Source of the DNA: Planctomycetota bacterium
Lineage (GTDB): Bacteria > Planctomycetota > Phycisphaerae > Phycisphaerales > UBA1924
Direction of reading: 5' to 3'
Assembly: GCA_033763975.1 (NCBI GenBank)
Contig: JANRJM010000013.1
Span: forward strand, 62,001-126,000
DNA: 64,000 bases
The notes beneath the pieces were generated by a model that saw nothing but the letters and a program-made list of their open reading frames with translations, ran no database searches and was not told the DNA's origin. Position 1 is the stretch's first letter. Every line of letters begins with the position of its first letter. A program made the translations under genes and the position numbers. Below, one piece after another: positions 7,662 through 17,732 of the stretch.

Positions 7662-8660
7662 CTACGGGCAGGGCGCGCCGGCGATCACCTGCGCCAGGGC
7701 GCTCAGGTCGTCCTGGTCGACGTTGCCGTCGCGGTTGAAGTCCGGGTCCTGCGCCGAGCACGACGGATCGCCCGCCACGACCTGCGCAAGGCAGCCGACG
7801 TCGTCCTGGTCCACATTCCCGTCCTGGTTGAAGTCCGGCTCGCACGCCACCCCGGGAACGCCGTCGAGCAGGAACGGCAGGTCCTTGCCTAGATCGGCCG
7901 CCTCGGCGGGCTTGCCCGCGTCGACGACCGCGTACCACCCGGCGTGTGCGCGCCCCGCCTCCTGGCGCAGTTGCACCGCGTTGCCCACGGACCGCACGCC
8001 GGGCACCGTCACCGCGGGCGAGTACGCCGGCGTGTTGGGATCCAGGCACACGTACTGCCAGTCGAGCCAGTACTGCCCCTCCGACAGATACACCGAGGGC
8101 AGCGACGCCGTGGTGGCCCACACGAGACGCGTCGTGTCGGGGGCCTGCGGCAGGGGCTGCGCGGTCGTGCTGAAGACGCGGTAGATGCTCGTCGGCTGCG
8201 ACGAGCCCATGCGGTTCGTGACATCGTCGCCGAAGACCACCGCCGCACCCGCATCACCCGGACGCCCGGACCAGATCCGCAGCGTGAGGCCGACGAAGGG
8301 CGACATCGGCCCGGCGGCCCCGGGCTGGTACGCGTACACCGTGACGCCCTGCAGCGTCCAGCCCCCCGCGGGCACGCTGAAGTCGTCGGCGAAGCGGAAC
8401 GCGCCGTCCGCGCCGATGGCGTGCGAGGCAAACCCGCCGACCGCGTCGGCGTGCAGCCCCGCGATGGGCGCTTCGCTCCAGAACGACGCCGTCGGGGCGG
8501 GCACGCCGGACTGCGTGGCCGAGGCGGCGCCCAGCGCGGGCGACGCGGGGTTCGCGCTCCCGTTGCTCAGCAGGGGCTCGGCGCGGGCGAGGGCGCCCAG
8601 CGCAACGGGGAGGGACGCGGCAACGAGCAGGAGGGTGGTTCGCACGGTCGGACTCCGCAT
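7662..8660 (-). CDS. Secreted protein with double dockerin-like C-terminal tail
   Basis: 332 aa. A signal peptide (VRTTLLLVAASLPVALGALA) is followed by a beta-rich region of unrecognised family with WTLQGVTVYAYQPGA and YWLDWQYVCLDPN. The C-terminal 60 residues hold two EF-hand-like DFNxDGNVDQDD units, each followed by a short helix and a Cys (DPSC and APCP), ending exactly in Cys-Pro. The same tail ends two other proteins in this window. Start at ATG 8660 (a longer frame exists, but the signal peptide begins here). It begins 25 bp after the DUF1501 stop on the same strand, so it is probably the last gene of the DUF1800-DUF1501 operon and may be a cargo or partner of that pair. Confidence 0.85.
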   Translation of the reverse strand: MRSPTVRTTLLLVAASLPVALGALARAEPLLSNGSANPASPALGAASATQSGVPAPTASFWSEAPIAGLHADAVGGFASHAIGADGAFRFADDFSVPAGGWTLQGVTVYAYQPGAAGPMSPFVGLTLRIWSGRPGDAGAAVVFGDDVTNRMGSSQPTSIYRVFSTTAQPLPQAPDTTRLVWATTASLPSVYLSEGQYWLDWQYVCLDPNTPAYSPAVTVPGVRSVGNAVQLRQEAGRAHAGWYAVVDAGKPAEAADLGKDLPFLLDGVPGVACEPDFNQDGNVDQDDVGCLAQVVAGDPSCSAQDPDFNRDGNVDQDDLSALAQVIAGAPCP

Positions 8661-8685
8661 CAGGGTCGGCGAATCATGGGGGCGA

Positions 8686-10011
8686 TCAGAGCAGCACGCC
8701 GCGGTCGGTGGGGACAAAGCTCGGGAAGATGGTGCCGAGATCGGTGGCGCCCAGGCGCTGCGAGAGGATCTCGGCCAGCAGGTCGCGGTAATCGATGGTG
8801 ACGTTCAGGTCCAGGCCCTCGTAGCGCTGGTCGGGCGCCAGGCCGGGCCACTGGGCGAGCACGCGCCCGCCGTTGACCGCGTTGCCCATGACGATCGCGC
8901 AGTTGCCGTGCCCGTGGTCGGTGCCCAGGCTCCCGTTCTCCTGCACGCGCCGCCCGAACTCGCTCATGCACACCACGATGTGGCTCGGCTGGACGGCCCC
9001 GCTGTTGAGGTCGGCGTGGAAGGCCGCCAGCCCCTGCGCGACCTGCGCCATCAGGTTCGCCATCGTGCCCGTGAGCGTGCCCTGGTTGGCGTGCGTGTCC
9101 CACCCGCCCAGGTCGATGGCGACCGCCTCGACGCCCACCTGCGCCTTGAGCAGCGCGGCGGTCGACTTCAGCGACGTCCCGAACGTGCCGGTGGGGTACA
9201 CCGCCCCGCCCGTGGGCACGTACCCCGCGAAGTTGATCGTGTTCAGCAGGTCGATGGTCTGCAGCGTCGTGATCGCGGCGGCGTGGATCGGGTCGGGCTG
9301 GTCCTCGTACATGTCCTCGATCGCGCCCCGACGCGCCGGGCGCGTGCCCGACGCCCCGCCCAGGTCGAACGTGTCGAGGTTCGGGATCGGCAGCGTCTGC
9401 GGCGCGCCCACCAGCGTGCGCATGAGCCCCGTGCTGATGCCCACGCCCCGCAGCAGTGCGCCGGGCATCATCGGGTCGATGTTCGCCAGGTGGCGACCCA
9501 GCCAGCCCGTGGCGAGCGTCGGGTCCGCGGGCTTGCCCACCTCCATGAAGCGCTGCGCGTCGAAGTGCGAGCGCGACGGATCGTGCGAGCCCGTGGCGTG
9601 CACGAACAGCAGTTGCCCGGACTGGTACGCCGGGATGAGCGCGGTCATCGCCGGCGGCAGGCCGAAGAACCCGTCCAGGTCGGTCGCGCGGTTCGCCTGC
9701 CCGCTCGAGGGCGCGGGCACCGCGAGATTGGGGCGGGCGGTGTAATACGCCGGGTCGGCGTGCGGCACCACCATGTTGAGCCCGTCGTTCGCGCCGCGCA
9801 GATAGATCGACACGATCACGTCGCGCATCGACGAGCGGTACTCTCGCGCCACCGCGACGCGCGGCAGCCACGCCGGCGTGGCGGCGGCCAGGGCGGTGAC
9901 CCCGCTCGCGGCGATGAACCGGCGGCGTGACAGGGCGAGATATTCCGGGCAGCCGCTCGGACCTCCGGACGGGGCGTCGGCTTGGGGCGCGGGCGGGGGC
10001 TGGGTGCTCAT
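8686..10011 (-). CDS. DUF1501 family secreted protein with Tat signal
   Basis: 441 aa member of the DUF1501 family, related to the alkaline-phosphatase/sulfatase fold and abundant in planctomycetes. A twin-arginine signal is visible at SRRRFIAASGVTALAAATPA (about residues 28-47). The mature part opens with VIVSIYLRGANDGLNMVVPH, characteristic of the family, and has HATGSHDPSRSHFDAQRFME, DLGGWDTHANQG, and MSEFGRRVQENGSLGTDHGH near the metal-like site. The true substrate of the family is unknown. It lies 37 bp after the DUF1800 gene and 25 bp before a dockerin-tailed gene, all on the minus strand. The DUF1800/DUF1501 pairing is a recurrent arrangement. Confidence 0.92.
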   Translation of the reverse strand: MSTQPPPAPQADAPSGGPSGCPEYLALSRRRFIAASGVTALAAATPAWLPRVAVAREYRSSMRDVIVSIYLRGANDGLNMVVPHADPAYYTARPNLAVPAPSSGQANRATDLDGFFGLPPAMTALIPAYQSGQLLFVHATGSHDPSRSHFDAQRFMEVGKPADPTLATGWLGRHLANIDPMMPGALLRGVGISTGLMRTLVGAPQTLPIPNLDTFDLGGASGTRPARRGAIEDMYEDQPDPIHAAAITTLQTIDLLNTINFAGYVPTGGAVYPTGTFGTSLKSTAALLKAQVGVEAVAIDLGGWDTHANQGTLTGTMANLMAQVAQGLAAFHADLNSGAVQPSHIVVCMSEFGRRVQENGSLGTDHGHGNCAIVMGNAVNGGRVLAQWPGLAPDQRYEGLDLNVTIDYRDLLAEILSQRLGATDLGTIFPSFVPTDRGVLL

Positions 10012-10048
10012 CGGGTGTTCTCCGGCTCGGTCGCTCGGCGGGTCAGGA

Positions 10049-11563
10049 CTAGAACCACTGGAAGAACGGGGACGACATGGCCAGCCCCAGCGCCTCGCGC
10101 TGGCGCGTCAGCGTCGGAACATTCGGCAGCATGTAGTTGCGGATCCGGTCGCGCTCCACCGCGGGCATCTCGCCCGCGTAGAACGACTGGTTGATCTTCT
10201 CGACCATCTGGTCAGCCGTCGACAGGCCCGCGAAGAACGCGCCCGCGTCGATCGAGAGACCCGAGATCCCGCTGTTCATGAGGTCCGCGCCGAAGTTCCA
10301 GCGCGGGATGATCAGCCCCACCCAGTAGTCCGTGGCGTCGGGGTAGCCGTCCGGCGTCGGCCAGCCGAAGCGGGGCATCCCCGCCGCCGAAAGGCGCGTG
10401 CGGAACGTCGTCGTGCTGGTGATCGCCGACGGCGCCCCGCGCAGGCACGAGATGAAGTGATGCCACGGACGCTTGTACTTGGGCGCCGCCATCGCCAGGT
10501 TGTTGGGCGCCAGGGCCGCCCGGATCATCGACTTGATGTCCCCGCCGGTCGACGTGAACGCCGCGGCGACCTGGTCGACCACGCCCGCGGGCACGGCGTC
10601 GCCCAGCAGCCAGCGGCAGAGCTTCGAGGAGACGTAGCGCGCGGTGCTCGGGTGGGCCAGCAGGATCGCCATGACGTCGATCCCGTCCTGCATGCCGTTC
10701 GCCGCGGGGCGCGCCGGGATGACCTGCCCCAGCACCACCTTCTGCCCGGTGTCGTGCTGCCCCTGGTTGTAGCGGAAGGTGCCCGAGAGCGCCCCGCTGT
10801 TGTCGTTGTAGAACTGCCACCCGGTGAAGCAGCGCGCCACCTCGGCCACGTCCTGCTGGGTGTACCCGCCGTCCGCGCCCATGGTGTGCAGTTCCATGAT
10901 CTCGCGGGCGTAGTTCTCGTTCGGGTTGCCGGCGGTGCTGATGTTGTTGTCCAGGTAGTCGAGCATCGCCGGGCTGCGGGCGCTCGCCGCCAGCATGTCG
11001 GCGAAGTTGCCCAGCGCGTGCGGGCGGATGACGTCGCGGTCGTCGATCGACTTCAGCCGGCGGAGGCGCCCCCCGTTCATCTCGATGTTGAAGTGGTCGG
11101 TCCAGAACTCGACCATGCGCTCGAAGAACTGGCGCTTCGAGTACGCCGCCCGGATGATCGCCGCCTCGATGCACTCGTTGGCGACCTGCGTGTCGGCCAC
11201 GCCGAGCATCTGCTGGTACGTCATCGGCAGCGTCGCGTACGCCGCCAGGCGCGTGTTCATCGCGCTGTCGTCGATCGCGCCGGCGTTCAGGTGGTATTCC
11301 AGGTACCCCTGGTAGCCGAGCGTCCGTGCGAGCGCGATCTCCTCGGGCGATTCGCCGTACGTCAGCCGGCGCACGAGCCGGTTGAGCAGGCTCGAGGGAT
11401 CGACATCCGCCGACGCGGGCGGCGGGGCCGCCTTCGCCGTCCGCATCCCCGCGGCGAGCGCCGCGAGCATGCCGGCGCTCGCCAGCAACCCGCGCCGCGA
11501 CAGGCCCACTTCCCGACGCGCCGCCTGCATTCGACCCGGCTCTCGCTCCACGGTCTGGCTCAT
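10049..11563 (-). CDS. DUF1800 family secreted protein
   Basis: 504 aa. The N-terminus is a twin-arginine-like signal, LSRRGLLASAGMLAALAAGM (about residues 22-41). DUF1800 hallmarks are present: LLNRLVRRLTYGESPEE near the start, RMVEFWTDHFNIEMN, NYAREIMELHTMGADGGYTQ, DVAEVARCFTGWQF, and a C-terminal RNYMLPNVPTLTRQREALGL. The ATG at 11563 has GAGG six bases upstream; an upstream in-frame Met lacks a signal-like context. First gene of the apparent three-gene operon DUF1800-DUF1501-dockerin-tailed protein. The family has no established biochemical role. Confidence 0.92.
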   Translation of the reverse strand: MSQTVEREPGRMQAARREVGLSRRGLLASAGMLAALAAGMRTAKAAPPPASADVDPSSLLNRLVRRLTYGESPEEIALARTLGYQGYLEYHLNAGAIDDSAMNTRLAAYATLPMTYQQMLGVADTQVANECIEAAIIRAAYSKRQFFERMVEFWTDHFNIEMNGGRLRRLKSIDDRDVIRPHALGNFADMLAASARSPAMLDYLDNNISTAGNPNENYAREIMELHTMGADGGYTQQDVAEVARCFTGWQFYNDNSGALSGTFRYNQGQHDTGQKVVLGQVIPARPAANGMQDGIDVMAILLAHPSTARYVSSKLCRWLLGDAVPAGVVDQVAAAFTSTGGDIKSMIRAALAPNNLAMAAPKYKRPWHHFISCLRGAPSAITSTTTFRTRLSAAGMPRFGWPTPDGYPDATDYWVGLIIPRWNFGADLMNSGISGLSIDAGAFFAGLSTADQMVEKINQSFYAGEMPAVERDRIRNYMLPNVPTLTRQREALGLAMSSPFFQWF

Positions 11564-11717
11564 GGATGCCTCGCTTGTCGTGCGGTTGTTTTCGGACAGC
11601 CAGCGGTTCAACGCCCGGGTCCGTCACCTATTTCACGATACCCATTTCTCATCCGGCGCCAATGCCGATCTCACGTTCCATCGACCGAATGCGACACAAC
11701 CCGCGAAACCGCGAGCA

Positions 11718-12845
11718 CTAGGGGCACGCGCCGCCCGCGACAACCTGCGCGATCGCCTCGATGTCGTTCTGGTCCACGTTGCCGTCCCGTGAAAAGTCCG
11801 GGTCACGCGCCGTGCACGACGTATCGCCCGCCACCGCCTGCGCGATGCACGCGACGTCGTCCTGGTCGACGTTGCCGTCGCCCGTGTAGTCCGCGTCGCA
11901 GCGCGTGAACTGCGCGATCAGGAACGCGCGCGCCGACTCGTGCACGCTCAACGAGAATCCGCCGTGCCCCGCCCCCGCCACTTGGATGAACTCGTGCGCC
12001 ACCCCCGCCGCGCTCAGCGCGCCCGCCATGCGCTCGCTCTGCCCGATCGGCACCGTCGTGTCCGCCGTGCCGTGCACGACCAGGAACGCCGGATCGTCGG
12101 GCGTCACGTGCGTGATCGGGTTGCAGAGCGTCGCGAGCGCCACCAGCGCCGGGAACGGCGGGTTCGGGTTCGTCAGGTTGGCACGCAGCACCCCGATCCC
12201 CTCGCCCGCACCGTCGAACCCCAGCAACCTCGACTCCGCCGATGTGGGCGCATCGTGGTTGATCGCCGAGCCGGGCGGCGTGCGGACGTCGAGCTGCATG
12301 TTGATGAGGTCCGATGGCCCGTAGTAGTCCACCACCGCCATCACGCCGCTGGAATGCGAGGCGTTTCCCCCGCTGGTCCCTTCCGCCGCCGCCACCCCCG
12401 CGCTCGTGCCCAGCAGCGACACCAGGTGACCCCCGGCCGATGACCCCCAGCACGCGATCCGCGCCGGATCGATGTTGAACTGCCCCGCGCGGGCGCGCAG
12501 GAACCGCACGGCCCCCTTCACGTCGTGGATCTGCGCCGGGAAAATCGCCTCCCCGCTCAGCCGGTACCGGGCGCTCGCCACCGCGACACCCTCCCCGAGC
12601 AGTTCGAGCACAAACGTCGGCACCTGGTTGTACGTCCCGCCCTGCCAGCCACCGCCGTGCACCCACAGCACCACCGGCGTCGGCCCGGGCGCGCCCGCCG
12701 GCGTGTACACGTCGATCATGAGCGTGACCGTGCCGCCGTCGTCCCGCGGCACCGCGCCGATCACCACGTCGTTGAACGTCGGCTGCGCGTGGCAGCACGC
12801 GGCCAGCCCCACCCACACGCCCGCCGCCGGCATCCGGCGAACCAT
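11718..12845 (-). CDS. Secreted alpha/beta-hydrolase (esterase) with dockerin-like tail
   Basis: 375 aa. After a short signal peptide (AAGVWVGLAACCHAQ) comes a BD-FAE/carboxylesterase-like alpha/beta hydrolase. It has the oxyanion motif HGGGW (63-67), the nucleophile elbow GSSAGG with Ser136, the acid Asp262 in VVHGTADTTVP and the base His294 in GAGHGGF, so the catalytic triad is complete. The last 55 residues carry two dockerin-like units (YTGDGNVDQDD, FSRDGNVDQND), each followed by a Cys, ending in Cys-Pro. ATG 12845 has GGGAG about nine bases upstream. Likely acts outside the cytoplasm on acyl or feruloyl esters of polysaccharides; the substrate is not predictable. Confidence 0.9.
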   Translation of the reverse strand: MVRRMPAAGVWVGLAACCHAQPTFNDVVIGAVPRDDGGTVTLMIDVYTPAGAPGPTPVVLWVHGGGWQGGTYNQVPTFVLELLGEGVAVASARYRLSGEAIFPAQIHDVKGAVRFLRARAGQFNIDPARIACWGSSAGGHLVSLLGTSAGVAAAEGTSGGNASHSSGVMAVVDYYGPSDLINMQLDVRTPPGSAINHDAPTSAESRLLGFDGAGEGIGVLRANLTNPNPPFPALVALATLCNPITHVTPDDPAFLVVHGTADTTVPIGQSERMAGALSAAGVAHEFIQVAGAGHGGFSLSVHESARAFLIAQFTRCDADYTGDGNVDQDDVACIAQAVAGDTSCTARDPDFSRDGNVDQNDIEAIAQVVAGGACP

Positions 12846-12910
12846 CGCCCGCACTCCCCGTTCAGCCCGGGGGCCCAACGCCCGGGCCGCGCGCGTGTTG
12901 CCGCCCATCG

Positions 12911-12947
12911 CACAAAAAAGAAAGCCCCGGGGGAAGGCCCCCGGGGC
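12911..12947 (-). terminator. Rho-independent terminator of the 12997-16125 gene
   Basis: On the minus strand, a perfect 10-bp GC stem (GCCCCGGGGG and CCCCCGGGGC, 12924-12947) with a 4-base loop is followed by TTTCTTTTTT. It lies about 50 bp past the stop of the dockerin-tailed 1042-aa gene and 66 bp upstream of the esterase start. It is the clearest intrinsic terminator in the window. Confidence 0.88.
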
Positions 12948-12996
12948 GGATTCAGCACAACTTCACAGAACGATCAGACCGACAACCGCCGCGGCC

Positions 12997-15900
12997 TTAC
13001 GGGCAGGGCGAGCCGGCGACGACCTGCTCGAGAATCGAGATGTCGTCCTGGTCGACGTTGCCGTCGCGGTTGAAGTCAGGATCAACCGAGGAGCAGGAGG
13101 GATCGCCCGCGACGACCTGCGCGAGGCAGAAGATGTCGTCCTGGTCGACGTTGCCGTCCTGGTTGAAGTCGGGGTCGCAGGGCGTGCTGCCGGTGATGAT
13201 GTTGAGGTCGTCCTGGTCGACATCGCCGTCGAAGTCGACGTCGCCGCAGCAGTAGGTGGCGTTGGGGGTGCCCATGTTGGCCATCGCGATGGCGATGTCG
13301 GCCGCGTCGCGCGAGCCGTCGAGGTTCACGTCGCCGACCTGGGTGTTCAGGATGTTGACGATGATCTCGACGGCGTCATCGGCGTCGACGTCGAGGTCGG
13401 CGTCCATGTCGGCCGAGATGTCGAAGAGGGCGGCCTCGTCGAGGTCGCTCCAGTTCGCGGCGCCGGTGATGCCGGCCTGGTTGAACTGGCGGACGACGTA
13501 CGACACGTCGACGCAGTCGATCACGCGATCGTTGTTGGTGTTGGTGTCGCCGTTGCCGTCAGCGCCGATGGGCGCCCAGCCGCGGGTCGTGGGGTTGATG
13601 GTGGTGATGCAGCCGTTGATCGCGGCGGCGGCGCCGACGGCGTTCGAGGCGTTGGCCACGTCGGCGCGCGAGTCGCCGGCCGCGTACGTCTCGCCCGCGT
13701 TCGACAGGATCGTGCCGAAGAAGTTGACGTTGCCCAGGACGGTCTGCGAGGCGTTGTCCACCGCCAGGAAGCCCGCCCGGCGATCGAGCTGGCCGTTCAC
13801 CAGCGCCAGGCCGTCGGCCCAGTAGCGGATGTCGAGCCGGTCGAACGAGCCGTTGCCCTCGACGTCGCCGAGGATCTCGATGACGGCCTGCTGGCCCGCG
13901 CCGGCGCCGTAGATGCCGTCCGGCGCCGACCAGGCGGGACCGCCGTTGCGCTGGCTCCACGCGCGGATCGCGTCCGTCGCGTCGGCCGTGCTGCGCACGC
14001 CGTCGCCGTTGAAGTCGAACACGATCTTGTTGCGGGGCGTGACCAGCGTGGTGTAGGTCACGGCGTTGCCGGCCTGGTCGATGTAGTTCTGCCCGCCCGC
14101 GACGCCGTCGGAGTAGACGACGCCGGTGGTGCGGCCCGGGACGCGCCCGCGCGACGCGCTGTTGAACGACACGAACGCCGCATTGAAGTGAACGTTGCCG
14201 TTCGCGGGGTTGCCGATGTAGTCCTGGACCTTCTGGTTGAAGGTGGGGTTGGGGGTCAGCACGGTGTAGTCGAGGTCGCTGTGCAGGTTGTCGAGGGCGG
14301 CCAGCGAGAGGAACTGGCTCGCCGCGAACTCGCCGGGCATGCCGAAGTTCGCGACGTCCGCGGGCACCGACTGGAACGCCGCGATCGAGCGCGAGATGTT
14401 GTTCATGTACAGCGCCGCGGCGGTGTTGCGCATCGGCGGGTTGGTGTTCGTGAGGCCGGCCTCGGCGTTCGTCGCGTCCCACATCCCGTTGCCGTTCAGG
14501 TCGGTGAAGGGCTCGCCCATGTCGTAGGCGTTGTTGTTGTTGGTGTCGACGAAGGGATCGAACGCGCCCGTCCAGCCGATGCCGCCCAGCGCGCACTCGC
14601 GCACCATGCTGCCGTTCTCATCGGTGAACGACTCGCTCGGCTCGCCCACGTCCATGAAGCCGTTGCCGTTGCTGTCGGTGAAGTTGAACGCGCTGTCGGC
14701 CGGGAAGCCGTTGCTGCCGTCGACGAAGAGCTCGCACGCGCGGGGGTCGCCGATGGTGGCGAGCACGGCCTGCCCGCCGATGAGCCAGCCGTCCACGCCG
14801 TTGTTCAGGATGTTGTCGGTCGTCGGGCGGGTGTACGCCGTCCCGCCGTAGATGTCATTCTGCACGTCGGCGATCTCGAGCCAGCCGTTGCTGAGCCACG
14901 AGCCGGTGCCCGAGCCCGTCACGCCGCGCTCGGTGCCGATGTAGCCCACGCCCAGGCGCATGTTGAGCATGGTCGCCTCAACGTCGCCGTTGCCGTTCTT
15001 GTTCGTGGGGATGAAGCCCGCGCCGAGGTTGTTCTGCGTGCCGCCGGAGGAGCGCGGCCCGATGTTGTCGCCGTTGCCCCAGGAGGGGTCAACGCCGGTG
15101 CAGTTGTTGAACGCATTGCGGGTGCCCGAACCGACGTCGCGCGTCACGACGACGAAGTTCTCGCCCGTGTTCGCGCGGCCCGTCACGAAGAGGTGCTGGA
15201 TCTCGGTGATCTTGAGCTGCGTGATGCCCGTGCCCAGGCCGACGACCGGCGCGATGGGGGCGAACAGCAGCTGCGTGTCGAAGATCGTGTTCGCGTCCGC
15301 GGCGCCGGGGTTGGTGGGGTCGAAGAGGTTGCGGCCCTGGAGCGTCAGGAGCTGGCTCGACAGGTTCGCGCCCGAGGTCCCGCCCTGCTTGTTCACGCTG
15401 TTGCGCGGGTTCGTGCCGTAGCCGCCCTCGGCGGGGGCCCGATCCCACTTCGCGACGCCGGGCTTCTGCACGGCGAGGAACGTGGAGACGTCAAGCGGGG
15501 AGACGTCGATCTGGATCCCGCCCGCGCTGCCAATGTCCGGGGTGGCGTAGGTGGCGCGGTACGAGGACTGATCGGCCGCGCGGTTCGGGGCGCCGCCGGG
15601 GTTGCCCTGGTTGTACGCGCCGGTGCGCACGCCCGAGTTCGTGCCGATCGTGATGTACAGATCGCGGTTGTGGTACGCGCCCGTGGCCTGGCCGGGGTTC
15701 GGCAGGCCGGTCGCGGGCGACGCGCCGGGGATGCCCGTCGCCGTCGTGGCGTTCGCGTCGTTCGTGAGGAACTGCGGGGGGCCCCAGCGGAGCAGCTCGT
15801 TGAAGCCGTTCACCGAGCCCGTCACGCGGTACTGCACGACGAGTTCCTGGGCCGTCAGGCTGCCCGAGGTGCCGAAGCCCTGCACGCCGCTCGGCGCGAG

Positions 15901-16125
15901 CTGGTCCGGCACGCCGCCGATGGTGGTGCCCAGGTACCCGCTAATGCCGTCGCCGTCAGCGTCGATGAAGTCGTTCGTCGACGCGCGGCTGGCGCTCCAG
16001 TTCTGGAGCAGCGTGGCGCCCGAGATGTTCACAACACGTCCCTGCTGCAGCTGCGCCATGGCCGGGAGGGCCGTCGCACAGGTTCCGGCCGCCGCGAGCA
16101 GCAGCCACGCACGATTGTTCTTCAT
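12997..16125 (-). CDS. Large secreted PBP-like protein with Ca-binding loops and dockerin-like tail
   Basis: 1042 aa. Signal peptide MKNNRAWLLLAAAGTCATAL ending in AMAQ. The mature N-terminus (NISGATLLQNW, 34-44; LVVQYRVTGSVNGFNELLRW) and TRDVGSGTRNAF (328-339) resemble phosphate-binding PBP-like proteins of the PstS type, whose anion pocket uses an R-x-GSGT loop. Residues about 530-620 contain several Asp/Asn-rich calcium-loop-like stretches (DSNGNGFMDVGE, DTNNNNAYDMGE, DLNGNGMWD). The last third holds acidic dockerin-like modules, ending in the same two DFNxDGNVDQDD units and Cys-Pro terminus as two neighbouring proteins. ATG 16125 has GGAGA upstream. A strong terminator follows. Cell-surface or secreted; the ligand is a guess. 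Confidence 0.85.
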   Translation of the reverse strand: MKNNRAWLLLAAAGTCATALPAMAQLQQGRVVNISGATLLQNWSASRASTNDFIDADGDGISGYLGTTIGGVPDQLAPSGVQGFGTSGSLTAQELVVQYRVTGSVNGFNELLRWGPPQFLTNDANATTATGIPGASPATGLPNPGQATGAYHNRDLYITIGTNSGVRTGAYNQGNPGGAPNRAADQSSYRATYATPDIGSAGGIQIDVSPLDVSTFLAVQKPGVAKWDRAPAEGGYGTNPRNSVNKQGGTSGANLSSQLLTLQGRNLFDPTNPGAADANTIFDTQLLFAPIAPVVGLGTGITQLKITEIQHLFVTGRANTGENFVVVTRDVGSGTRNAFNNCTGVDPSWGNGDNIGPRSSGGTQNNLGAGFIPTNKNGNGDVEATMLNMRLGVGYIGTERGVTGSGTGSWLSNGWLEIADVQNDIYGGTAYTRPTTDNILNNGVDGWLIGGQAVLATIGDPRACELFVDGSNGFPADSAFNFTDSNGNGFMDVGEPSESFTDENGSMVRECALGGIGWTGAFDPFVDTNNNNAYDMGEPFTDLNGNGMWDATNAEAGLTNTNPPMRNTAAALYMNNISRSIAAFQSVPADVANFGMPGEFAASQFLSLAALDNLHSDLDYTVLTPNPTFNQKVQDYIGNPANGNVHFNAAFVSFNSASRGRVPGRTTGVVYSDGVAGGQNYIDQAGNAVTYTTLVTPRNKIVFDFNGDGVRSTADATDAIRAWSQRNGGPAWSAPDGIYGAGAGQQAVIEILGDVEGNGSFDRLDIRYWADGLALVNGQLDRRAGFLAVDNASQTVLGNVNFFGTILSNAGETYAAGDSRADVANASNAVGAAAAINGCITTINPTTRGWAPIGADGNGDTNTNNDRVIDCVDVSYVVRQFNQAGITGAANWSDLDEAALFDISADMDADLDVDADDAVEIIVNILNTQVGDVNLDGSRDAADIAIAMANMGTPNATYCCGDVDFDGDVDQDDLNIITGSTPCDPDFNQDGNVDQDDIFCLAQVVAGDPSCSSVDPDFNRDGNVDQDDISILEQVVAGSPCP

Positions 16126-16368
16126 GGATCTTCTCTCCGAAAAAGGCGTTTGGGGCACGATGGACGGACCGACAGCCGTCATGCCCCGGAGCGAGGACGT
16201 TGTGGTCAGGAACGAGCCACACCCCGTTGGCATGCGGATGCACGCATTGGTTTGCCGGTCTCTCGACCGTCTTCAGTTGTCGTGTTGTCGAAACGCGCGG
16301 CCTGCGCCAGGTTTGAAAACGAACCGAACCCCTCCGAGTTCGGCTCGCGGTGCGCTTCTCACAGTCTC

Positions 16369-17388
16369 TTAGCGCGGTTGCGTGTTCACCCGGTTGTCGC
16401 CCGTCAGGCTCCAGAACCGGTCGCCCCACTTGCGCTTCTCGATCGTCGTTTCAATGTTCGACTGCTCCACGTGCCCGTCCACGTACCCGAAGTTCGCCTG
16501 TCCGCCCTTCGCGTTCTTGGAGCCCGGGTGGTGACGGGCCACCGCGTTCAGCGTCGTGTTCGTCCCGCCGTCGATCGCGCCTTCGGGCACATCGGCCACC
16601 GGCAGGATCTCGTCCAGCAGCGGGTACACGAAGCGCGGGAACGCGCTCGCGCCCAGCGGCTCGTTGTACACGTCCACGCCCGACGAGATGCCGTAGAAAG
16701 GCGTCACCGGGCGGTGGCTCTTGAACAGCCCGCCCGTCTGGATCGCCCGGTAGTCCTTGTCGGGCGTGAACTCCGTCACCAGGATCACGTTCGACGCGTT
16801 GTTGATGTCCGAGTCCTTCACCAGCTTGTTCTTGCGGGCGCCGCCGAACGCCGTCGAGAACTTGTTGCGCGGGAAGATCGCCGCGTTCCCCGTGTACGCG
16901 ATCCGCTTCACCTGCCGGTCCGTCGGCGTCGAGGCCCCGGCCCCCTGGCCCAGGTCGTTCACCTGCTCGGGCTCCCAGTTCGCCTGGTCGGGCCCCGGGT
17001 TCGTCGCCGGCGCCCCGCCCCGCGGCATCGACGGGCACTTGAACGAGTCCTCGTTCACCGCGCCCGTGTTGAACAACGCGTACGACCAGTGCACGTACCC
17101 CGTCGACGGGTTCGGGTTGCTCAGCAACTGCTGCTCGAACTGCCAGTTCGTCGTGCTGTCGTCCGACCCGTACACATAGTGCGGCGGGTAGTACTGCTTC
17201 GCGTCCGTCGAGTACGCGATCACGCCCTGCAGCACGCTGCGGTTGTTCGCGGCGCACTTGATCATCCGCGCCGTCGACCGCGCGTTCCCCAGCGCGGGCA
17301 ACAGAATCCCGATCAGCAGCGCAATGATCGCGATCACGACCAGCAGCTCGATCAGGGTGAAGGCACGCGGGCCGCCCTTGCTTCGCAT
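16369..17388 (-). CDS. Prepilin-type protein with H-x9-DG tail
   Basis: 339 aa type II pseudopilin-like protein. The class III signal [20 protein letters not shown] is placed a few residues after the start (RSKGGPRA), with Phe and Glu5 as the prepilin peptidase expects. The C-terminal half ends with [13 protein letters not shown] and FGYVDGHVE, the H-x9-DG signature common in planctomycete pseudopilins. ATG 17388 is preceded by GGAGATTCCC. Located upstream of the 1042-aa surface protein on the same strand but 243 bp away. Such proteins are numerous in this phylum; the specific role is unknown. Confidence 0.92.
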
Positions 17389-17732
17389 GGGAATCTCCGG
17401 TTCGCCCGCGCGGTGATGCCCCCCGGCCCCCGCCACGGATCGTTCGAGTGAGCCCAGAGGATAGCGCACGACTCTCCAGATTTGAAGCCCTCCCCACTGT
17501 GTTTCAGTGAGAGATCACGCGCTCTTCGTACAGTCTTTATATTTGGGTTGTGTCAAGACCCTTCGCTTACTCGATGTCGCACACATGTTTGTGCCATCGC
17601 GCTTCGTGAAGTACGCCGCGACGCCCTTCACCGCCCCCGCCCGATTTTTCGTCGTTTCCCCCGGCGGCCTCCCTCGTGGCTCCTCCCCGCCCCCTCGCCC
17701 GCGCTCGCCCGCAAGTTCCTACGCTCGGCGGC
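17389..17732. other. Divergent intergenic region (344 bp)
   Basis: Between the minus-strand prepilin start and the plus-strand glycosyltransferase start. On the minus strand a TTGACA is visible at 17556-17551 with a TATAAA (17541-17536) only nine bases away, too close for a standard sigma-70 pair. The half next to the glycosyltransferase is pyrimidine-rich. No gene or structured RNA was recognised. Confidence 0.4.

Follow-up and report, generated by a model that had tools for sequence, protein, structure and literature searches.

Three genes in the 64-kb stretch of DNA analyzed here (the window, C13:62001-126000, on one of the 19 contigs of a 3.27-Mb, 97% complete planctomycete assembly labelled G000) encode proteins that end in a common tail. 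By sequence and by predicted model these tails are type I dockerins, consisting of two EF-hand-type loops of the calcium-binding kind, each followed by a helix. The three open reading frames (ORFs), with lengths in amino acids (aa), and their tails lie as follows, in window positions:

7662..8717, minus strand: tagged ORF 1, 351 aa read from the TTG at 8717; main domain without a Pfam match
7665..7847, minus strand: ORF 1 dockerin tail, 61 aa, Cys-Pro end (alignment, model, and PF00404)
11718..12908, minus strand: tagged ORF 2, 396 aa, esterase-like alpha/beta hydrolase (PF20434, E=3.9e-53)
11721..11903, minus strand: ORF 2 dockerin tail, 61 aa, Cys-Pro end (tail alignment)
12997..16233, minus strand: tagged ORF 3, 1078 aa, with an internal ATG at 16125 followed by a signal-peptide-like stretch
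13000..13182, minus strand: ORF 3 dockerin tail, 61 aa, Cys-Pro end (tail alignment)
13192..13342, minus strand: additional dockerin-like EF-hand units immediately upstream of the ORF 3 terminal tail (weak; tail-profile E 0.007)

Dockerin-type tails of three window proteins

The original prediction described a repeated C-terminal tail on three unrelated secreted proteins, and most of this description holds. The tails are 61 residues each and align without gaps, with 67% and 82% identity to the ORF 1 tail, and all three end in Cys-Pro. At the DNA level a repeat of 189 nucleotides (nt) is present three times, two copies matching the reference copy at 74% identity; a 49-nt unit forms an 11-copy family in the window (60% threshold), and the seven loop motifs recovered by a six-frame pattern scan of the 64 kb all lie inside ORFs 1 to 3. 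The main domains differ: ORF 2 is a PF20434 hydrolase, and ORFs 1 and 3 lack a strong Pfam match beyond their tails. One detail needs amendment. Rather than simply following each DFNxDGNVDQDD unit, the cysteines occupy tail positions 2, 19 (inside helix 1), 30 (in the linker), and 60. Secretion is suggested by hydrophobic N termini read by eye rather than by a signal-peptide predictor. For ORF 1, an internal ATG ahead of the hydrophobic stretch is a likelier true start than the TTG at 8717. The three proteins gave no match to defense families, and one tail used as a query gave no match among plasmid records.

All 73 aligned tails of this genome match PF00404 (Dockerin_1) at E≤0.1, the best at 1.6e-9. 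The ORF 1 tail alone scores 24.0 bits against a cut-off of 22.9, and the whole-protein scores of ORFs 1 to 3 (21.8, 15.0, and 17.5) all fall under the Pfam cut-off. Loop positions 1, 5, 9, and 12 are invariant Asp in both loops and position 3 is Asn in at least 90% of the 73 tails, and the calcium-ligand positions (1, 3, 5, 9, and 12) and the two helices are those of the type I dockerins of cellulosomes. A profile of the same alignment (A2) matches solved dockerins with a best E of 7.5e-7. The predicted tail model (predicted local distance difference test [pLDDT] 97.3, predicted template-modelling [pTM] score 0.84) has helices at residues 14 to 24 and 45 to 55, and the top 31 rows of a Foldseek search are all dockerin or cohesin-dockerin entries, with template-modelling (TM) scores by query of 0.54 to 0.72; the E-values are modest (best 0.034), which we attribute to the short chain. 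VIA-align against solved dockerins gives Z up to 8.4 (60 residues, root-mean-square deviation 2.3), with most Z near 8 or less.

Several other identities were considered. Matches of the tails to the NCBIfam entries holin_dep_muram, CelK, and XopAW are weak and look like EF-hand cross-matches. PEP-CTERM sorting signals have a hydrophobic segment and a basic end; we rejected a signal of that kind, as the tails are Asp rich, lack a hydrophobic segment, and end in -CP. The C-terminal domain of type IX secretion is a beta-sandwich with its own machinery, compared with which the tail model is a helical EF-hand.

A tag family in the genome and its relatives

A profile built from the three window tails finds 84 matches in the G000 genome at E≤10, of which 80 are at E≤1.3e-11, and the recurrence of the tail is far above chance. 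Genome-wide collection of tail-bearing proteins, as the original prediction proposed, used 471 kb of fetched stretches plus the window and yields 80 distinct ORFs, the weakest at 14 bits. The tail reaches the stop codon or ends one residue short of it in all but one, which runs off a contig end. Neither are the ends random: of the 76 stop-terminated ORFs that exceed 60 aa, 69 finish exactly in -CP, and the remaining seven end in CPL, CPW, CPV, CPQ, CR, PC, and GGG. A clear hydrophobic stretch occurs within the first 120 residues of 50 of these 76 (stop-to-stop frame, crude scale), probably an undercount because some true starts lie further inside the frame. Judging from their N-terminal sequences, the approximately 75 otherwise unrelated tagged proteins are probably exported. 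The Pfam census took in 75 tagged proteins, and A2 aligns 73 of the 80 tails. The cargo is diverse, with 68 Pfam families at E≤1e-4, none of them in more than four proteins; subtilases, M12B-type peptidases, Rax2-type propellers, and P-domains occur in four proteins each, and M36, M14, and CHRD in single proteins each. Tagged genes also cluster, with 27 neighbor pairs no more than 500 bp apart among 79.

We note some variant C termini in this genome. Two tagged proteins, C10:57691-60345(-) and C1:215872-217968(+), end in a single loop-helix unit between two cysteines, a half dockerin that could perhaps join a second half. Three untagged proteins in the neighborhood of tagged ones (C12:179213-179971[+], C13:3614-4504[+], and C9:7100-8173[+]) have PEP-CTERM-like ends (P-[TA]-P-G, a hydrophobic run, and RRRR), which suggests that this genome has another C-terminal signal, of the membrane type. 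An untagged GH16+CBM6 protein, C12:164079-166142(+), has a C-terminal EF-hand-like stretch of another type, which may represent a further docking class. Contigs C12 and C13 start with the same tail stretch (positions 1 to 138 in each), and the assembly seems to have broken at such repeated tails.

The distribution of the tag was followed through the seven genomes of the genus, 34 other relatives, and a sample of 100 genomes of the family. At E≤1e-10 the A2 profile finds 52 to 128 copies in every genus genome, and two copies in one of the 34 other relatives. The NCBIfam model NF041540, in turn, matches 100 of the 100 sampled family genomes at E≤0.01 and exceeds its cut-off in 97, so the tag is family-wide and this genus has its own variant of it, with dozens of copies of dockerin-tagged proteins in most sampled family genomes. 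This model (NF041540.1, dockerin_GC, "GC-type dockerin domain-anchored protein") describes tails of the same bacterial order that are likewise at the extreme C terminus, of two-loop build, provided with one Cys ahead of loop 1 and a terminal one, and present in more than 100 copies in some genomes; that these two cysteines define the GC-type family is our reading rather than NCBI's text. The G000 tails differ in loop spacing, mostly 31 residues (53 of 75) compared with 27 in the four GC-type genomes measured, and in ending mostly in -CP, whereas GC-type genomes show both -GC and -GCP. Only three of the 73 G000 tails match NF041540 at E≤1 (best E 0.058), and we infer that their scores are far under its curated 29-bit cut-off; the whole genome has two places at E≤0.01, the best at 3.3e-6. 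In a literature search that lay largely outside subscription papers, the term "GC-type dockerin" occurred in no paper and none described the tag family.

Relatives carrying the tag are Phycisphaerales SJ502, D1_Bin_30, and a metagenome-assembled genome (MAG) deposited as "Leptolyngbya sp. PLA1" (on QWIH contigs, part of loci L072-L143). The last name looks wrong, because 34 tagged proteins in the loci seen pair with SJ502 proteins as reciprocal best matches, at 85% identity on average. The tails of these two relatives are 90.8% identical between orthologues (34 pairs), and thus tails keep orthology over short times. The comparison with G000 is different. Tails of G000 are mutually 71% identical and its orthologous tails are 60.4% identical to those of PLA1 (18 pairs) and 62.1% to those of SJ502 (18 pairs), about equal to random cross-species tail pairs (60.3% and 59.7%, respectively); the main domains of these orthologue pairs are approximately 53% identical. 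In 18/18 (PLA1) and 17/18 (SJ502) pairs, the G000 tail is closer on average to its paralogues than to its orthologue, so most of its tails changed together since the split. The shift is visible at single residues, and position 18 is Q in G000 and N in the relative in 28/36 pairs for repeat 1 and 25/36 for repeat 2. Both members carry a tail in the 36 reciprocal-best pairs, although tails served to retrieve the relatives' loci and tagged ORFs alone were compared. The related-locus alignment (A3) omits five of 76 loci (L073, L117, L126, L135, and L139), and the L135 reference held a stop. The simplest cause of such joint change is selection by one shared partner. Recent gene conversion was considered as the sole cause of tail likeness and rejected, as codon identity is just moderately above expectation.

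Paired cysteines and lineage-specific loop residues

The cysteines at the two ends of the tail occur together. Of the 345 two-loop tails at C termini in the collected loci, most of these loci having been fetched by profiles of the tail family, the first Cys (before loop 1) and the last Cys are both present in 323 and both missing in 10, with the last only in eight and the first only in four. The first Cys is present in 72 of 75 G000 tails, and GC-type genomes are alike; across the tabulated genomes almost every tail has both cysteines. Their co-occurrence suggests a disulfide "clasp" between the domain ends, a putative bond read from sequence. It is plausible because known dockerins tie their ends together by stacking: in the Cel48S dockerin of Clostridium thermocellum, the available part of the source describes ends held by Tyr5-Pro66 stacking (PMC4728124). 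The two arrangements would share first and last residues that are held together and a Pro at the C-terminal end, and differ in the means, stacking in Cel48S and, by analogy, presumably a disulfide in these tails. A second Cys pair, in helix 1 of repeat 1 and in the linker, is complete in 67 of 75 G000 tails, missing in five, and reduced to the linker Cys in three. It is absent from 56 of 59 PLA1 tails, and of the 54 SJ502 tails 49 lack it and two have it; 34 of the 36 orthologue pairs have C at position 15 in G000 and Y in the relative.

The excerpted text of PMC6780208 gives loop positions 10, 11, 17, 18, and 22 as the cohesin recognition residues of cellulosomal dockerins; there, and in the part available of PMC5748583, resemblance between the repeats is read as a sign of dual-mode binding. 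The repeated recognition positions and the alike repeats of these type I dockerins (PMC6780208, in the same excerpts) are found again in the present tails. We tabulated the residues at positions 10 and 11 for 40 genomes; 49 were labelled, and nine have no tail by the pattern, which demands a Cys in the last eight residues. Loci L337-L360 come from 24 different genomes, and the four genomes that were enlarged were those with several listed matches. The same majority pair occupies positions 10 and 11 of both repeats in 29 of the 40 genomes, with 19 distinct pairs, and in 12 of the 15 genomes having at least six tails. The pair is Q-D in both repeats in G000, SJ502, and PLA1, Q-G in G198 and D1_Bin_30, and elsewhere F-N (G205), T-Q (G216), T-L (G208), or F-F (G219); the genus of G000 has Q-D and Q-G at a minimum, with G-F a probable third. 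Counted by tail, 286/354 are symmetric at positions 10 and 11, or 109/160 without the three largest sets, and 301/380 after the addition of 26 tails of four genomes, with which G296 stayed uniform (G-D in 8/8, both repeats). Outside this genus, five of seven same-genus pairs of genomes share one residue pair, as follows, and G232/G281 and G238/G283 have no clear shared pair:

G208/G274: T-L
G216/G278: T-Q
G219/G279: F-F
G264/G296: G-D
G261/G294: F-F

The two repeats agree at positions 10, 11, and 14 with frequencies of 0.82, 0.74, and 0.87 within a genome, compared with 0.11, 0.11, and 0.13 between genomes, and the observed agreement was never reached in 2,000 trials in which repeat 2 was permuted among genomes. 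The size of the excess is what matters, because every variable position is significant under permutation. Normalized, it is 0.79, 0.71, and 0.85 at positions 10, 11, and 14; 0.65, 0.48, and 0.55 at 17, 18, and 21; and 0.39, 0.25, 0.20, and 0.30 at 7, 15, 19, and 22. Different tails of one genome also agree with each other at positions 10 and 11 (0.84 and 0.72 within a genome, 0.19 and 0.08 between; 12 genomes with at least six tails). The symmetric variable positions 10, 11, 14, 18, and 21 fit one helix face.

Candidate receptors and competing explanations

A receptor with a cohesin-like domain, one of the two kinds that the original prediction proposed to look for, was sought and not found in the G000 genome or its genus. 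The cohesin model PF00963 has no match at E≤10 in G000 and none over cut-off in the seven genus genomes, within 41 genomes searched; one weak genus match (G198, E 0.086, 14 bits) lies in a protein that is tagged itself. A class-derived cohesin profile (A4) gave nothing better than E 0.07 in the seven genus genomes. Searches with hmmsearch --max and hhalign across 359 genes, predicted from the fetched G000 stretches and the window with a simple G+C rule, returned nothing usable, the best hmmsearch match (E 0.016; reversed control 1.7) being in a tagged protein and the best hhalign probability being 2.7%. In the class, 26 of 198 genomes match PF00963 at E≤0.001. Recognizable cohesins occur in nine of 100 family genomes over cut-off (12 at E≤0.01), with tags in 100 of 100, and we propose a receptor that may be a highly diverged cohesin or else a different protein. 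The cohesin-bearing proteins of other family genomes give no general answer: the three complete cohesin-bearing proteins of the family (L260, L361, and L366) have dockerin-like EF-hand ends without a terminal Cys, and the others leave their loci. Untagged neighbors were also considered as the receptor and rejected, ten such genes close to tagged clusters giving GH17, GH16+CBM6, alpha-amylase, GH31, LptF/G, HSP70, a sub-threshold VWA, and, for three, nothing. The earlier suggestion of a cohesin-binding module in a cell-surface complex therefore stands for the kind of domain, a dockerin by PF00404 and by model, and not for a cohesin receptor; a sorting or anchoring tag is the likely function.

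On balance, we favor the explanation that the tails are type I dockerins serving as a general docking tag, with dual-mode binding to a shared and co-evolving receptor. A disulfide between the first and last Cys would tie the domain ends, as a covalent counterpart of the Cel48S Tyr-Pro clasp, and the second Cys pair (helix 1 and linker) would have been added in this species. One helix face (loop positions 10, 11, 14, 17/18, and 21) may bind a shared receptor outside the cytoplasm, and both halves would present the same face, allowing two binding orientations. If one receptor fits all tails, any change in it would drag all tails and both halves along, giving lineage-specific codes. Such a receptor would be no recognizable cohesin, and the likely result is retention of exported peptidases, esterases, beta-propeller proteins, and others on the cell surface or within its matrix. 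The tag is ordinary in kind, and its interest lies in its orphan state and its lineage codes. If there is one code per lineage in both halves, then the destination of these proteins becomes a defined search for one co-evolving receptor, and these lineages would be a natural supply of many disulfide-clasped, perhaps mutually orthogonal docking domains. A broader proposal, which we put forward tentatively and as less likely than not, is a family-wide universal surface-docking tag whose non-cohesin receptor has co-evolved with it through up to 19 two-fold symmetric codes, or orthogonal pairs.

Several observations weigh against this explanation. No receptor emerged from the G000, genus, or family searches. 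Retrieval by tail-family profiles favors tails having both cysteines, which bears on the clasp count. Eleven of the 40 genomes have no common majority pair in both repeats, 24 of the 40 rest on one or two tails, and in G203 the pair G-F is in 7/7 second but just 2/7 first repeats. With the added tails, G283 and G238 mix A and S (6/12 and 5/9 symmetric), and none of the four G281 tails is symmetric. Position 22, a published contact, is not very symmetric and position 18 is also less symmetric than 10, while position 20, probably in the core, is symmetric (0.76) and, like 14, equals 10 in this respect. Symmetry extends beyond the published contacts, so a general likeness of the two repeats makes up part of the signal. 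Codon identity is 0.738 versus 0.687 expected from codon usage (52 of 73 tails, ungapped), and within loops 0.787 versus 0.700 between repeats and 0.777 versus 0.704 between tails, consistent with some DNA-level homogenization as a contributor to tail likeness.

The strongest competing account, unlikely though far from negligible, is that an ordinary cohesin scaffold is present and too diverged for profile searches, making this a standard complex such as the cohesin-dockerin "planctosome" proposed for freshwater Planctomycetes (PMC6461901, in the excerpts available). The occurrence of cohesins in the class (26/198) and family (9/100 over cut-off) and their great sequence diversity (24% mean column identity in A4) are in its favor. 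As described in these excerpts (PMC6461901), the planctosome resembles the present system in being planctomycete, with dockerins on peptidases and a proposed anchoring outside the cell, and differs in having cohesin proteins, of which the G000 genome and genus gave none. Against it, zero of seven genus genomes are over cut-off, with a class-profile best of E 0.07, so gaps in one assembly are no explanation, and dockerins are in all 100 sampled family genomes. Compared with cellulosomes, too, the G000 system has no cohesin found in its genome, its cargo is not mainly plant-polysaccharide enzymes, and it has a probable disulfide clasp.

We consider it improbable that there is no receptor at all, the tail being a calcium- and disulfide-stabilized C-terminal cap and the within-genome likeness arising from gene conversion. 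The tails are repeated DNA, an identical 138-base tail match stands at the starts of C12 and C13, codon identity is above expectation, and the code is loose in some lineages. Conversion should level all positions, however, yet 7, 15, 19, and 22 differ between repeats far more than 10, 11, and 14, and synonymous sites are just modestly more alike than codon usage predicts.

Slightly less probable is a role as an export signal for a secretion machine instead of an anchor. Pseudopilin-like genes (51 used) lie near tagged genes somewhat more often than under circular shifts: 11 are no more than 1.5 kb away against a shifted mean of 5.2 (p 0.03), 12 no more than 3 kb against 7.2 (p 0.08), and 19 no more than 5 kb against 9.7 (p 0.014). 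This enrichment is weak and post hoc, with 51 of 60 matches used and the size of one contig guessed, and for the same reason pseudopilins were rejected as the partner; many tagged proteins, moreover, already have signal-peptide-like N termini. Very doubtful is the notion that the terminal Cys-Pro is itself a sorting signal, the Cys being joined to another thiol or a peptidase cutting there and anchoring covalently: the ending is very constant (69/76 -CP), a constancy beyond the needs of a simple fold, but Pro is replaced, absent, or extended in some proteins (CPL, CPW, CPV, CPQ, CR, and PC), the terminal Cys accompanies the first Cys, there is no hydrophobic segment or basic end, and a C-terminal Pro also suits the known clasp (Pro66 of Cel48S, in the part available of PMC4728124).

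The window genes next to the tagged ones are tail free where they lie between them, namely a DUF1501 gene (8686-10011, minus strand) and a DUF1800 gene (10049-11611, minus strand). A pseudopilin-like N_methyl gene (16369-17469, minus strand; DUF1559 score under cut-off) is directly upstream of tagged ORF 3.

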